Assembly: GCF_003574085.1 (NCBI RefSeq) | Contig: NZ_QWKZ01000007.1 | Location: 1 to 45,260 of the forward strand | From: Meiothermus luteus | GTDB lineage: Bacteria; Deinococcota; Deinococci; Deinococcales; Thermaceae | DNA length: 45,260 bases | Direction of reading: 5' to 3' | Part shown: positions 7,280 to 11,956 of the stretch, in pieces | Layout of the letters: the number at the start of each line of letters is the position of its first letter | Numbering within the stretch: the first letter of the stretch is position 1 | Made by a program: the position numbers and the translations under genes | The notes under the pieces: model-generated | Told to the model about the DNA's origin: nothing | Database searches by the model: none | Seen by the model: only the letters and a program-made list of their open reading frames with translations

Positions 7280-8119
7280 CTACCTCAGACCCCAGGCGTA
7301 CTCCAGGATTTTCCTTGGAATGTCCACCCCGGTGGTGCTCACCGAGTTCTTGAACTCCATGGTGTGGTTGACCTCGTTGACCAAAAGCCCGCGCTCGCTC
7401 TCAAAGAGGTCTATCGCCACCACCCCACCCCCCACGGCCTTGGCCGCCCGCACGGCCAGCTCGGCCAGCTCGGGCGTGACAGGGCAGTTGGAGGCCTTGC
7501 CGCCTCGGGCGGTGTTGGTAATCCAGTGCTCGCTAGTGCGGTAGATGGCCGCGATGCAGGTGTCCCCTACCACAAAGGCCCGGATGTCGCGGCCGGGCTT
7601 CCTGACCATCTCCTGGATGTAGTAGAGCTGATGCTGGTAGCCCCCCAGCACCTCCTTGTGCTCCAGCAGGGCCTCGGCTGCGTCCCGGTCGTTCACCTTG
7701 GCCAGAAGGCGGCCCCAGCTCCCCACCACCGGCTTCATCACCACCGGGTAGCCCAGCTCCTCGATGAGCCTCAGGGCCTCCTCGACCTCGGTGGCCAGGG
7801 CGGTCTTGGGCTGGGGCACCCCGTGGGCCTCCAGCGCACAGCTCGTGGCCCACTTGTCACCGCAGACCTCAATCACCTCCGGCGCGTTCACCACTGGAAT
7901 CCCCAGGCTTTTCAGGTAGCGCGAAACCGCTAGGCCCTTGCTCTGCGAGACCAGGCGCTCCACCGCGCAGGTGATGCCATGTAGCTCCGGGGGCCGCTCC
8001 CCTAGCCTCATGGGCAGCTGCTTGGCGTAGATTTTCCTGAAGGGAATGCCCAGCCCCTCGGCGGCCTTAAAGAGCATCTCCTCGTCGGGGCGGATGCGGT
8101 CGTAGAGAATGGCCAGCAT
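7280..8119 (-). CDS. lysX: alpha-aminoadipate:LysW ligase LysX
   Basis: The 279-residue product is an ATP-grasp ligase of the LysX/RimK family: [47 protein letters not shown], and the C-terminal metal site VVAIDLFE...[14 protein letters not shown]. LysX joins the alpha-amino group of aminoadipate to the C-terminal glutamate of LysW, protecting it for later steps. lysW is immediately upstream (46-base gap), which fits their joint function. The ribosome site is weak. Length and motifs match Thermus LysX closely. Confidence 0.93.
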
Positions 8120-8165
8120 AGCAAAGAACAGGGGGAATCAGCTCCCAAACCAGCTAGAAACCCCG

Positions 8166-8330
8166 CTACTCCCCCCAGTCCTCCGCCTCCTCGGGGGCCG
8201 CTTGGAGCCTGAGGGGTTCCAGGCCCACCACCTCGAGCTCCGCCCCACAGGTCTCGCAGACCACCAGTTCTCCTAGCTCAGGGTTGCTCAGCTCCACTTC
8301 GCTTCCACACTCCACACACTCGGCCGTCAT
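8166..8330 (-). CDS. lysW: lysine biosynthesis carrier protein LysW
   Basis: A 54-residue acidic carrier protein too short for many gene finders. It has one zinc ribbon with Cys5, Cys8, Cys25 and Cys28 (ECVECGS and VCETCGAELEVV) and ends in EDWGE, the C-terminal glutamate tail on which LysX attaches aminoadipate. The attached substrate is then phosphorylated by LysZ, reduced by LysY, aminated by LysJ and released by LysK; the last two are not in this window. A GGAGG lies about nine bases before the ATG. It is followed by lysX. Confidence 0.95.
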   Translation of the reverse strand: MTAECVECGSEVELSNPELGELVVCETCGAELEVVGLEPLRLQAAPEEAEDWGE

Positions 8331-8470
8331 CTCCCATCTCCTCCGATTCGCTCTTTGGGCGCTGGCCTGACCCCAAGGAATGGCAGCCAGGTGCCCCTCA
8401 GATTCTCCCTCACCCAGGGTCCCTTTGCGAAGGGCTTGCCCGACCTACGACCAGGCAGACCGGGTTAGGT

Positions 8471-8779
8471 TCAGTAATCCTCCTCCTCTTCCTCCAGCTC
8501 CGACCAGTCGGGCGTGAACCGGTGGCCGCACTCTGGGCAGACCGCCTCCTCCCGGCCCTCTAGCTCAAAGGTCAAGCCACACTCCGGGCAGTCCACGAAA
8601 AGCCCCTCCTCGCCATCCTCAATCACCACCACCTCTAAAGGGTCAGTGGAGAGAATCTGCAGGTAGGCCCCGCAGGACTCACACTCAAAGTAGTCCTCCG
8701 GGGTAAGCTCCTCCAGGTCCTCGGGAGGGATAAAGTTGGGCTCGCGGCACACCGGGCAGATTACCTCTAGGTCTTCCAT
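8471..8779 (-). CDS. LysW-like double zinc-ribbon acidic protein
   Basis: A 102-residue protein with two four-cysteine sites: Cys8/Cys11/Cys33/Cys36 and Cys64/Cys67/Cys81/Cys84. The first half (ICPVCREPNF... to ...CGAYLQILSTDPLEVV) follows the LysW pattern, including a strand after the second CxxC that matches LysW CGAELEVVGLEPL. The second half is another ribbon, and the protein ends in an acidic tail (ELEEEEEDY) rather than EDWGE. It sits between lysU and lysW in the same direction. It could be a LysW paralogue, a partner that presents LysW to the enzymes, or an unrelated zinc-ribbon regulator. The relation to LysW is my reading of the sequence. Confidence 0.7.
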   Translation of the reverse strand: MEDLEVICPVCREPNFIPPEDLEELTPEDYFECESCGAYLQILSTDPLEVVVIEDGEEGLFVDCPECGLTFELEGREEAVCPECGHRFTPDWSELEEEEEDY

Positions 8780-8800
8780 ATAGACCTCAACCCCCTCAGT

Positions 8801-9304
8801 CTACCCTCCTCCGCCCTCCCCGGGAAACCGGCCGTACTTGCGGTAGTAGTCCAGGATGCTCCCCTCTTTCAGGGCCTCCAGCAGAAAATCGGGCGGGGGG
8901 GTGAGTTGATAGGTCCTCTCCCCATGCCGCAAAAGCCCCCTTCCCAAATCCAGCTCCACCTCGTCGCCGTCCTGAAGCGCGTCCACCACCTCCGGCGCCT
9001 CAAAGGGCAGGATGCCCAGGTTGACCAGGTTGCGGTAGAAGATGCGGGCGTAGCTCTTGGCAATGATGGCCCTAAGGCCCAGCTTGCGCAGGGCTTCCGG
9101 GGCGTACTCGCGGGAGGAGCCCAGCCCGGTGTTCCGGCCACAGACCAGGATATCCCCCGGGCGGAACCCCGAGGCGAACTCGGGGCGCAGGTGGGCAAAG
9201 GCGTAGGTGTGGAACTTGTCCTCCCCCACCATGAAGGGGGCGTACTTGCCGGGGAGGATGTCGTCGGTGTTGATGGCGTCGCCAAACTTCCAGACCCTAG
9301 GCAC
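8801..9304 (-). CDS. lysU: homoaconitase small subunit LysU
   Basis: The 167-residue swivel subunit of homoaconitase starts MPRVWKFGDAINTDDILPGKY, then FVGRN-like VCGRNTGLGSSREYAPEAL and AIIAKSYARIFYRNLVNLGI, all diagnostic of LeuD/LysU. With LysT it isomerises homocitrate to homoisocitrate through homoaconitate. The start is GTG at 9304, overlapping the end of lysT by eight bases, so the subunits are translationally coupled. The swivel-loop residues after SSREYAPEAL distinguish homoaconitase from isopropylmalate isomerase in the literature, but I rely on operon context. Confidence 0.9.
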   Translation of the reverse strand: MPRVWKFGDAINTDDILPGKYAPFMVGEDKFHTYAFAHLRPEFASGFRPGDILVCGRNTGLGSSREYAPEALRKLGLRAIIAKSYARIFYRNLVNLGILPFEAPEVVDALQDGDEVELDLGRGLLRHGERTYQLTPPPDFLLEALKEGSILDYYRKYGRFPGEGGGG

Positions 9305-10547
9305 GGGCCACCTCCAGCTCCTCCGGGGTGGTGATGTACCCCGCTACCGCCGTGGCCGCCGCCACCCTGGGGCTGGCCAGGTAAATCTCGGCGTCCGCCG
9401 CCCCCATCCGCCCCCGGAAGTTGCGGTTGGAGGTGCTCACGCAGACCTCCCCAGGGGCCAGCACCCCCTGGTGCCGCCCCATGCAGGGCCCGCAGCCGGG
9501 GGTACCGATGGTGGCCCCGGCCTGCAGCAAGGTGAGCAGGGTACCGTCGGCAGCGGCGGCCTCGAGCACCTCTGAAGAGGCCGGTATCACCAGCATCCGC
9601 ACCCCTGGCGCCACCTTGCGGCCCTTGAGGATGGCGGCGACTTCGTGCAGGTCGTCCAGGCGCCCGTTGGTGCAGGTGCCCACGAACACCTGGTCCACCT
9701 TCTTGCCCCGGACCGCGGCCACCTCCTCCACGTTGTCCACGTAGAAGGGCACCGAAACCCGGGGGGTAAGGGTGGAGAGGTCAATCTCCACCTCCTTGGC
9801 ATAGACCGCATCCGGGTCGGGGTAGAGCCAGGTGGGCACGTCGTAGAGTTCCAGAATCTCGCCGCTGGGCACCACCAGCCCGCACTTGGCTCCGGCCTCC
9901 ACCGTGAGGTTGGCCAGGGTCAGGCGCTGGCTGCGGGTGAGGGATTCGGCCCCGTCCAAGAGGTGTATCTCAATGCTCATGTAGGTGGCCCCGTCGGCGG
10001 TGAGGACACGCACCATCTCCAGGGCTGCGTCCTTGGCTGTGGCTCCGGGGGCCAGCCGCCCCCGGAAGGTCACCTTGACCGTCTCGGGTACCCTAAGCCA
10101 GGTGCGTCCCGAGGCCGCCGCCAGGGCGATGTCGGTGGCCCCCATCCCGCTGCCAAAACAGGCAATCCCACCGTAGGTGGTGGAGTGCGAGTCCGAGCCC
10201 AGCACGATGCCCCCCGGCTGGGCTAGGCCCTCTTCTACTAAGACCTGGTGGCAGATGCCCCGGCCCACATCAAACACCCGGCAGCCATACCGGTTGCCCC
10301 ACTCGCGGATTTCTTTTTGGGCTTTGGCCACCTCCACATTGGCCGCCGGGGCCACGTGGTCAATCACGATGGCCACCTTCTCGGGGAAGCGCGGAGCGGC
10401 CCCAAGCTGCTGAAGCCGCTTGAAGAAGCTCCCGGCAATGGAGTCCACCACCATCACCTGGTCTACCTCCACCACCACCAGCTCGCCGGCCCGAACCTCC
10501 CGGCCGGCCCTTTGGGAAAGGATTTTTTCGGCTAGCGTCAGGCCCAT
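9297..10547 (-). CDS. lysT: homoaconitase large subunit LysT
   Basis: The 416-residue product has the aconitase-family [4Fe-4S] ligands in FVGTCTNGR and GTPGCGPCMGRHQG. Its substrate loops include GSDSHSTTYGG and GRTWLRVPETV. It is the catalytic subunit of homoaconitase with LysU. The ATG at 10547 (MGLTLAEKIL) is preferred because AGAGGTGA lies at ribosome-site distance and homologues begin there. A GTG 30 bases upstream would add ten residues. It follows lysS by 37 bases and overlaps lysU by eight, supporting one lys mRNA. Confidence 0.9.
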   Translation of the reverse strand: MGLTLAEKILSQRAGREVRAGELVVVEVDQVMVVDSIAGSFFKRLQQLGAAPRFPEKVAIVIDHVAPAANVEVAKAQKEIREWGNRYGCRVFDVGRGICHQVLVEEGLAQPGGIVLGSDSHSTTYGGIACFGSGMGATDIALAAASGRTWLRVPETVKVTFRGRLAPGATAKDAALEMVRVLTADGATYMSIEIHLLDGAESLTRSQRLTLANLTVEAGAKCGLVVPSGEILELYDVPTWLYPDPDAVYAKEVEIDLSTLTPRVSVPFYVDNVEEVAAVRGKKVDQVFVGTCTNGRLDDLHEVAAILKGRKVAPGVRMLVIPASSEVLEAAAADGTLLTLLQAGATIGTPGCGPCMGRHQGVLAPGEVCVSTSNRNFRGRMGAADAEIYLASPRVAAATAVAGYITTPEELEVARA

Positions 10548-10584
10548 CTTCTCACCTCTCAACAAAGGCTCGCTCACCTAGCCC

Positions 10585-11814
10585 TCAGTCCAGGTTCTCC
10601 AACCGCGCGGTGGGCACCTCCTCCGGAATGGGGTGCCGGGAGAGGCCGTGGGCCAGGGCGATTTCCCGCAAGAGCTCCTCGGGCTTCTTCCGCCGACCAA
10701 TCTCACCCGTGCGGCTCTTGAACTCCTGGGCGATGCGCTTGGCCTGTTCCTTGGTAATCTCAAAGGCCTCCACCTCTTTTAGATAGTAGTAAATCAGGTT
10801 CCAGCCCGATAGGGGCCCCAGGAGGAGCTGGTTCTTGTCTACCCCGAAGTCGTGCAGGTTGTGCGCTTCGTACACCTTTTTCTCGTTTAGAACAGCTTTC
10901 TGGTGCACCCCGGCGGTATGGGTGCGGTTGGTGAGGGAGACTGGCTCGGTGTAGGGCACCAGGGTGCCCAGGATGGAAGCCATCAGTACGTTCAGGGGGT
11001 AGCACTGGCTCAGGTTGTACTCCTCCTTGATCTCCGGATAGCGCTTGGACAGGTTGAACAGCACCCCCGTGACCGAGGGAATCCCCGAGCGCTCGGCCAA
11101 ACCCCAGATGGAGGCGTCTATGTAGCGCACCCCGGCCCGCACCGCGGCCAACACGTTGGCCAGGGCCAGACCCCGGTCGTTGTGGAAGTGGCCCTCGAGC
11201 GCGGCCCTGGGGTAGCGCTCGCGCAGGGCAGAGACCACCTGGGCCACGTCCTCCGGCTCAGCGATGCCCACCGTGTCGGGCAGACCCAGCGTGTTCACGT
11301 AGGGATAGACCACATCGTACAGCTGGAAGAGGTCCGCCAGAGGCGTGCGGAAGGCGTCCTCGGCGCTAAAACGCAGGTACATCTGGGGGTAGGCCGCCCG
11401 CACCTCCCGCAGCACCCCCTCGGCCAGGGCCACCGCCTCGTCCAAGGACTTCTGCGCGTTGTGCCGCTGGGCCAAGGGCGAGACCCCCAGGTACAGGTTC
11501 AGGCCGTTGCAGCCCACCTCGAGGGCCTTCTCCACATCAAGCAGGTTGGTGCGGCAGTGCCCCAAGAAGTGAAGCGGCTTGGGGGTAAGCTCCTTGGCGT
11601 AGGCGATCAGCTCCCGCACGTCCTCGGCCTCGGCCTCGCCCACCACCGGGGAGAAAAACTCAAAATGGGTCACCCCCAGCTCGATTAGGCCTGCGAGCAG
11701 CTGCTTTTTCTCCTCCAGAGAAAAGCGGTACTTCTCCGTGTCAAACAGGAGCGGCGACTGCTGGCCGTCGCGGAAGGTGGTATCTACGATTACGATGCGC
11801 TGGTCTGTCTGCAT
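10585..11814 (-). CDS. lysS: probable homocitrate synthase, divergent from Thermus LysS
   Basis: A 409-residue HMGL-like TIM-barrel acyltransferase. The N-terminus is IVIVDTTFRDGQQSPLLF, the metal-binding HxH is EGHFHNDRGLALAN, and TAGVHQKAVLNEKKVYEA lies in the C-terminal part. As the first gene before lysT-lysU it should condense acetyl-CoA with 2-oxoglutarate to homocitrate. However, its sequence does not follow the T. thermophilus enzyme as I know it, which begins near IIDSTLREGEQ and is about 376 residues long. It belongs to a separate subgroup, so function is inferred from position. The ATG lies seven bases after the leader terminator U-run. Confidence 0.72.
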   Translation of the reverse strand: MQTDQRIVIVDTTFRDGQQSPLLFDTEKYRFSLEEKKQLLAGLIELGVTHFEFFSPVVGEAEAEDVRELIAYAKELTPKPLHFLGHCRTNLLDVEKALEVGCNGLNLYLGVSPLAQRHNAQKSLDEAVALAEGVLREVRAAYPQMYLRFSAEDAFRTPLADLFQLYDVVYPYVNTLGLPDTVGIAEPEDVAQVVSALRERYPRAALEGHFHNDRGLALANVLAAVRAGVRYIDASIWGLAERSGIPSVTGVLFNLSKRYPEIKEEYNLSQCYPLNVLMASILGTLVPYTEPVSLTNRTHTAGVHQKAVLNEKKVYEAHNLHDFGVDKNQLLLGPLSGWNLIYYYLKEVEAFEITKEQAKRIAQEFKSRTGEIGRRKKPEELLREIALAHGLSRHPIPEEVPTARLENLD

Positions 11815-11820
11815 AGGCCT

Positions 11821-11850
11821 AAAAAAAACCGCCCGCTTCCTCTGCGGGCC
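11821..11850 (-). terminator. intrinsic terminator of the lys leader (attenuator)
   Basis: On the minus strand GCCCGC (11849-11844) pairs with GCGGGC (11836-11831) around a seven-base loop, followed by GG and an uninterrupted run of eight or more T residues ending at 11821. It stands directly between the leader peptide and lysS, so termination here would prevent expression of the lys genes. Upstream, GGGGCTA and TAGCCC segments can form a longer alternative hairpin that overlaps its 5' arm. Confidence 0.8.
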
Positions 11851-11881
11851 GGGCTACGCAAGCGCGCGAACTAGCGGTGCG

Positions 11882-11920
11882 CTAGCCCCCGGCGCTGGAT
11901 TTTTTAGCCCGTATAAGCAT
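11882..11920 (-). CDS. lys operon leader peptide with tandem Lys codons
   Basis: A 12-codon ORF encodes MLIRAKKSSAGG and then TAG. The two central Lys codons are AAA AAA. The ATG lies six bases after the -10 box, so the leader mRNA probably starts at or beside the ATG. Ribosome stalling at the Lys codons when charged tRNA-Lys is scarce would change folding of the downstream RNA and prevent the terminator at 11821-11850. Leader-peptide attenuation of the lys cluster has been reported in Thermus thermophilus, which supports this reading. The peptide itself presumably has no other function. Confidence 0.82.
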   Translation of the reverse strand: MLIRAKKSSAGG

Positions 11921-11926
11921 ACCGCA

Positions 11927-11956
11927 AGTGTAAAATCGGTATACCGAGGCTGTCAA
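11927..11956 (-). promoter_or_regulatory. lys operon promoter with 12-bp palindrome in the spacer
   Basis: On the minus strand TTGACA (11956-11951) is a perfect -35 box, followed after 18 bases by TACACT (11932-11927) as -10. Between them lies the perfect palindrome TCGGTATACCGA (11936-11947). A site there would be occluded by a bound repressor, or used by an activator that bends the spacer. The nearby CGGTAT of the -10 downstream region repeats half of it. Confidence 0.75.

Follow-up and report, generated by a model that had tools for sequence, protein, structure and literature searches.

On the minus strand of the Meiothermus luteus DNA analysed here (a stretch of 45,260 nucleotides, hereafter the window), a 12-codon open reading frame (ORF) with two adjacent lysine codons lies between a promoter and a terminator, and its start codon almost adjoins the -10 element. 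The locus raises the question of whether translation of so short a frame could govern transcription of the gene behind it. The promoter consists of a -35 element TTGACA (11951-11956) and a -10 element TACACT (11927-11932) with an 18-nt spacer; in the pattern scan it scored 10/12 and was the only one found, against 0.1 expected. The leader ORF (MLIRAKKSSAGG and a stop codon, 11882-11920), which has homologs in about 60 genomes, carries its Lys-Lys codons AAA AAA at 11900-11905. It is followed by a terminator found by the same kind of scan (11849-11821), composed of the hairpin GCCCGC-AGAGGAA-GCGGGC (11831-11849), two G residues and a U8 tract (11821-11828). All of these elements lie on the minus strand, and their coordinates agree with those of an earlier, sequence-only reading of this DNA. 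A combined expression for a promoter, 4-11 nt, a start codon, a short Lys-Lys ORF and a T-run had a single match in the whole 45 kb window; 100 shuffled windows gave none.

The sequence-only reading had also called the leader leaderless. Its basis stands, as only 6 nt separate the ATG from the -10 element and a Shine-Dalgarno sequence would not fit between them. The safer wording is leaderless or nearly so, with a 5' untranslated stretch of 0-5 nt, because the transcript start is itself a prediction and most relatives have 8-11 nt between the -10 element and the ATG. In Meiothermus, Calidithermus and a sister genus (g9) the distance from the -10 element to the start codon is 6-11 nt, which predicts an untranslated stretch of ~0-5 nt without room for a Shine-Dalgarno sequence. 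ORFs adjoining a -10 element have been described as common in this phylum (PMC12340547), and the spacing of 6 nt here and 6-11 nt in relatives fits that pattern, the 5' end being a predicted one.

The gene following the terminator had been taken for lysS, encoding lysyl-tRNA synthetase, but its Pfam domains (HMGL-like and HCS_D2) and solved relatives identify it instead as homocitrate synthase (hcs, 409 aa, 10585-11814, minus strand). The closest solved structures are the homocitrate synthases 2ztj and 3a9i, and the product scores below the TIGR02146 cut-off. Behind hcs, on the same strand, NCBIfam and Pfam matches place hacA, hacB, a gene for a LysW-like 102-aa protein and lysX (7280-10577), and the order hcs-hacA-hacB-lysW-like-lysX is that of the alpha-aminoadipate pathway of lysine synthesis. 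The protein in the LysW position (8471-8779) has two zinc ribbons and about twice the usual LysW length; its position and a sub-threshold match weakly suggest that it is LysW.

In other phyla a lysine riboswitch occupies the same position ahead of the same pathway, and a riboswitch or T-box that senses lysine or uncharged tRNA directly would therefore be a natural explanation of the locus. The Rfam covariance models gave no match at gathering threshold in the window or at the leader locus. In addition, the ~100 nt available are short for either class, and a direct RNA sensor would need no ORF with lysine codons. This identity was rejected, and we give it almost no chance.

Each of the 22 genomes of Meiothermus, Calidithermus and g9 that carry this type of hcs has a homologous leader immediately in front of that gene (genus labels of the relatives' genomes, such as Thermus, are ones that we infer). 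A covariance model built from these leaders was run on 111 genomes of the class and returned exactly one site per genome in 55 of them, comprising all Meiothermus and relatives, 22 of the 27 Thermus (genus g11) and 11 genomes of family f4. Every site whose sequence was read adjoins hcs, those of Thermus and f4 included. The Thermus E-values were weak (0.001-0.07); position, peptide and promoter nonetheless agree, and hcs is again followed by hacA. A search from the hcs side, with no lysine requirement, recovered the leader in the five Thermus genomes and one genome of a close genus (g12) missed by the model, and it stands before hcs in 27/27 Thermus, in g12, in most of f4 and in two f5 genomes, where it is diverged and retains AAA AAA. 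The peptides in these other groups are of the MLAxxKKLGRRGVG type (Thermus) and of the MxRFAKKxGAGGA type or related. Common descent of the Meiothermus and Thermus hcs leaders is thereby indicated. In families f2 and f3 the leaders before hcs contained no comparable KK element. In two f5 genomes that carry hcs of the Meiothermus type, a leaderless-looking ORF and a terminator stand ahead of the gene, with no Lys-Lys in the peptides (MQNYGKHWHGGSS and MYKLVTRAIQNTDKRKAGGSS); hacA was not found in their examined flank.

The conservation of the lysine codons, which the sequence-only reading had proposed as a check and whose absence it would have taken as refutation, was observed. In-frame AAA AAA is kept in all Meiothermus, Calidithermus, Thermus and f4 leaders read save one frameshifted draft, and is invariant in the 22-sequence alignment. 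One collection of leaders had been preselected for AAAAAA, and its 53/53 is so by construction; the independent evidence comes from the 22-sequence Meiothermus-group set and its alignment and from the hcs-anchored Thermus, g12 and f5 set. The leaders spell Lys-Lys in this way although AAA is the minority lysine codon (17 AAA vs 63 AAG in nine genes of the window, and 0 AAA vs 18 AAG in one Thermus hcs), and the adjacent codons vary. The exception is a fragmentary Thermus draft (G050) with seven A's instead of six at this place, which shifts the reading frame; it is probably a sequence error, the alternative being a slippage site.

The -35 element TTGACA is identical in 22/22 genomes of Meiothermus, Calidithermus and g9, and the relatives' -10 elements read TACACT, TACCCT or similar. 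A promoter and an intrinsic terminator are each real by themselves, and since translation of the leader ORF is a prediction, the locus could be read as an ordinary terminator, or as a promoter regulated by a protein, accompanied by a short ORF of no significance. However, in-frame Lys-Lys, its AAA spelling, the start codon adjoining the -10 element and the pairing of the ORF tail with a downstream arm (see below) are kept across families that otherwise differ, and we regard this explanation as very improbable.

The attenuator appears to have been more durable than the gene that it precedes. The hcs of Thermus and f4 shares only ~31% identity with the Meiothermus type; for the product of hacA, the gene behind it, identity between Meiothermus and one Thermus reaches 83% across the first 106 residues. 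The next-best matches within Meiothermus genomes reach the level of 2-isopropylmalate synthase. In the simplest history, the Meiothermus lineage exchanged its hcs and retained the promoter and attenuator; this direction takes f4 as the outgroup. The locus would then exemplify a regulatory cassette that survived the replacement of its controlled gene.

How the RNA could switch was examined from its pairing arms. The tail of the leader ORF forms arm 1 of the putative antiterminator (GCCGGGGGCTAG, 11882-11893), in which GCCGGG is invariant or nearly so, and arm 3 (TAGCCCGGC, 11848-11856) lies downstream and extends into the 5' arm of the terminator. Between them, the minimum-energy fold places a hairpin (GGGCTAGCG CAC CGCTAGTTC, 11868-11888), the equivalent of which in relatives is paired in 92% of cells of the Meiothermus-group alignment. 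Across Meiothermus and Calidithermus, GCCGGG and its partner CCCGGC are retained; a single genome has one mismatch. The alternative fold of GGGCTA with TAGCCC, which the sequence-only reading had pointed out, is present here but is confined to a few species; as a conserved core it was rejected, most relatives having TATCCC or similar, and the kept arm is GCCGGG/CCCGGC. In this species a second GGGCTA just before the lysine codons (within CGGGCTA, 11911-11905) offers the same TAGCCCG another partner in the minimum-energy fold.

In every family the ORF tail can pair with arm 3, and arm 3 extends into the terminator 5' arm. The letters differ by family while the pairing stays: most Thermus have GCCGGGGGGTA:TATCCCCCGGC, two genomes CGGGGAGG:CCTCCCCG, part of f4 GCCGGAGGGGC:GCCCCTCCGGC and f5 GGAGG:CCTCC. 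A cross-family MAFFT alignment put arm 1 out of register, and covariation was assessed by a duplex-energy permutation of arm 3 among eleven representatives in place of pair counts. The test gave p = 3e-5 for covariation between families, a value driven by Thermus and f4, with the window's own duplex no better than mismatched ones. In the Meiothermus alignment by itself, two pairs had changed on both sides, both in the terminator; two such pairs are too few to prove the fold, and pair counts on this alignment were rejected as proof. Antiterminator and terminator overlap by up to about 10 nt in Thermus and f4 and by 2-3 nt in Meiothermus, where the antiterminator is a junction of two small hairpins closed by a stem of 4-6 bp. 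An antiterminator that involves the ORF region and competes with the terminator is clear in the modelled folds of Thermus and f4.

Ribosome positions were modelled with the leading edge assumed to lie at a distance of 12 nt (+/-2 nt) from the A-site codon's first base. With this edge, a ribosome at the first lysine codon ends at nt 27, one position ahead of GCCGGG, which begins at nt 28, and the modelled footprint of a ribosome at the stop codon covers arm 1. On nascent RNA folded before the terminator 3' arm exists, at 37 and 60 C, arm 3 was paired with values of 0.83-1.00 for a ribosome at the first lysine codon vs 0.03-0.56 for one at the stop codon across nine leaders. Stalled and finished ribosomes are predicted by these models to leave different arms free, and the alternative folds, whose computation had been suggested earlier, go in the expected direction. 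The full-length equilibrium fold behaves otherwise. The terminator is kept in most stalled states of Meiothermus and relatives (0.56-1.00), and with a ribosome at the first lysine codon it is excluded in one f4 leader and stays at 0.68-0.94 in two Thermus leaders. Equilibrium folding was rejected as proof of the Meiothermus switch, the terminator being kept in nearly every state; the states are told apart only by folding of the nascent RNA. Because the arms there share only 2-3 nt and both could form at equilibrium, a Meiothermus switch would have to be kinetic and act during transcription. For RNA without a ribosome in Thermus and f4, the antiterminator is favoured and the terminator is at 0.00; an untranslated leader is thereby predicted to be read through.

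Taken together, the leader upstream of the lysine operon is very probably a transcription attenuator of the leader-peptide kind, responsive to charged Lys-tRNA. Transcription would begin at the leader AUG or no more than about 5 nt from it, and the first ribosome would load at the RNA 5' end without a Shine-Dalgarno sequence. When Lys-tRNA is scarce, this ribosome would pause once the first AAA occupies its A site and leave the ORF tail (GCCGGG...) free to pair with arm 3 (CCCGGC) once the latter is synthesized, capturing the base of the terminator 5' arm; with the antiterminator formed, the folds suggest that polymerase would continue into hcs-hacA-hacB-lysW-lysX. When lysine is ample, the ribosome would reach the stop codon and mask arm 1, the terminator would fold, and transcription would end ahead of hcs. 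In classical attenuation the first ribosome must load fast, in step with polymerase, and a peptide without a 5' leader makes this loading a test of 5'-terminal AUG initiation in a thermophile.

The locus had been described in the sequence-only reading as a translational attenuator. In control of that kind, the leader would hide or expose the hcs ribosome-binding site and would not stop transcription. The hcs AUG lies only 6 nt downstream of the U-run in this species, so that the terminator hairpin could also hamper initiation. However, a GC hairpin with a U-run is kept in the relatives, most of which have a separate Shine-Dalgarno sequence (e.g. AAGGAGG) beyond the hairpin, after the U-run and ahead of hcs. 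Transcription attenuation is the better reading of these features, and control at the level of hcs translation is, in our estimate, quite unlikely.

The arrangement may extend beyond lysine. A TTGAC, a -10 element and an adjacent ATG occur together at 23 places in the M. luteus genome, vs 2 for the reversed pattern; about half of the 23 start short ORFs, and many precede amino-acid or tRNA-synthetase genes. Candidate leaders were collected from this genome (L133, L137, L134, L144, L146, L147, L149 and L132) and from relatives (L162, L163, L169, L166, L157 and L170 in G025; L181, L182, L183 and L195 in G037; L230, L233, L219, L231, L234 and L213 in G021). The versions compared came from another Meiothermus, a sister genus and, in part, Thermus, and their telling residues are kept. 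The leader peptide before asd reads MVWYTTTS in M. luteus and MVWYTTTTS or MVWYTTTT in relatives; before trpB, MRPRTPRSYKWHHQRWWRG and ...KWHHQRWW...; before the DAHP synthase gene, ...PFGYFYW... and YGYFYW or RYFGFYY; and before ilvB, MLFAYLSLAVVGLVIIRPAGDMV and ILTVVGLVI or LVLSLGLVLIV. The leader of the aspartate--tRNA(Asn) ligase gene is MLRTSDNC in M. luteus, where other leaders precede leuC, thrS and argG. In relatives, DDN, NDN or ND occurs before aspS, TT before thrS and RRR before argG, and an Arg/Lys-rich leader precedes lysJ. None of nine such loci matched an Rfam leader. In a prfB-like gene (L130 in M. luteus, L161 in G025) the start also adjoins a -10 element; its first frame is short (MELETLRHRLDALRGYL), and the gene has a frameshift site, CTTTGAC. 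On this evidence we lean slightly towards the view that the hcs (KK) leader belongs to a whole series of leaderless attenuators by which Thermaceae normally control their amino-acid genes, together with those of asd (TTTT), trpB (WW), DAHP synthase (FGYFYW), ilvB (L/V/I-rich), leuC, thrS (TT), argG (RRR), lysJ and aspartate--tRNA(Asn) ligase (DN/NDN), and that at least part of the set reads through by default unless translated. If so, the Thermaceae would offer many natural leaderless attenuators in which the behaviour of uninitiated RNA could be tested directly.

A lysine leader-peptide attenuator has reportedly been described for the hcs cluster of Thermus thermophilus, and it is said to be alike in gene position, Lys-Lys leader and order of arms and terminator. 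The Meiothermus attenuator differs from that of Thermus in controlling a different hcs homolog (31%), in its shorter stems around extra hairpins and in an arm 3 that shares 2-3 nt. As in the enterobacterial trp and his attenuators, the position of the ribosome on the cognate codons would select terminator or antiterminator; those systems have a 5' leader with a Shine-Dalgarno sequence and four arms, whereas no 5' leader is present here and untranslated Thermus and f4 RNA is predicted to favour the antiterminator, the reverse of trp. The ilvBNC attenuator of Corynebacterium glutamicum lacks a ribosome-binding site, and its transcript begins 1 nt away from the start codon of the leader (PMC11857589). 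It is likewise a leader-peptide transcription attenuator with a 5'-end start, but it belongs to another phylum, responds to other amino acids and has three hairpins with an antiantiterminator. Mycobacterial polycysteine ORFs (Canestrari et al. 2020, cited in PMC9031893 and PMC13236596) are, in the accounts given by the citing papers, leaderless short ORFs with a run of the sensed residue before an operon; as described there, they differ in sensing cysteine and in acting on downstream translation, not on an intrinsic terminator. The mechanism is known in kind; what is new here is its range, the gene swap behind it and the signs of a wider set of attenuators.
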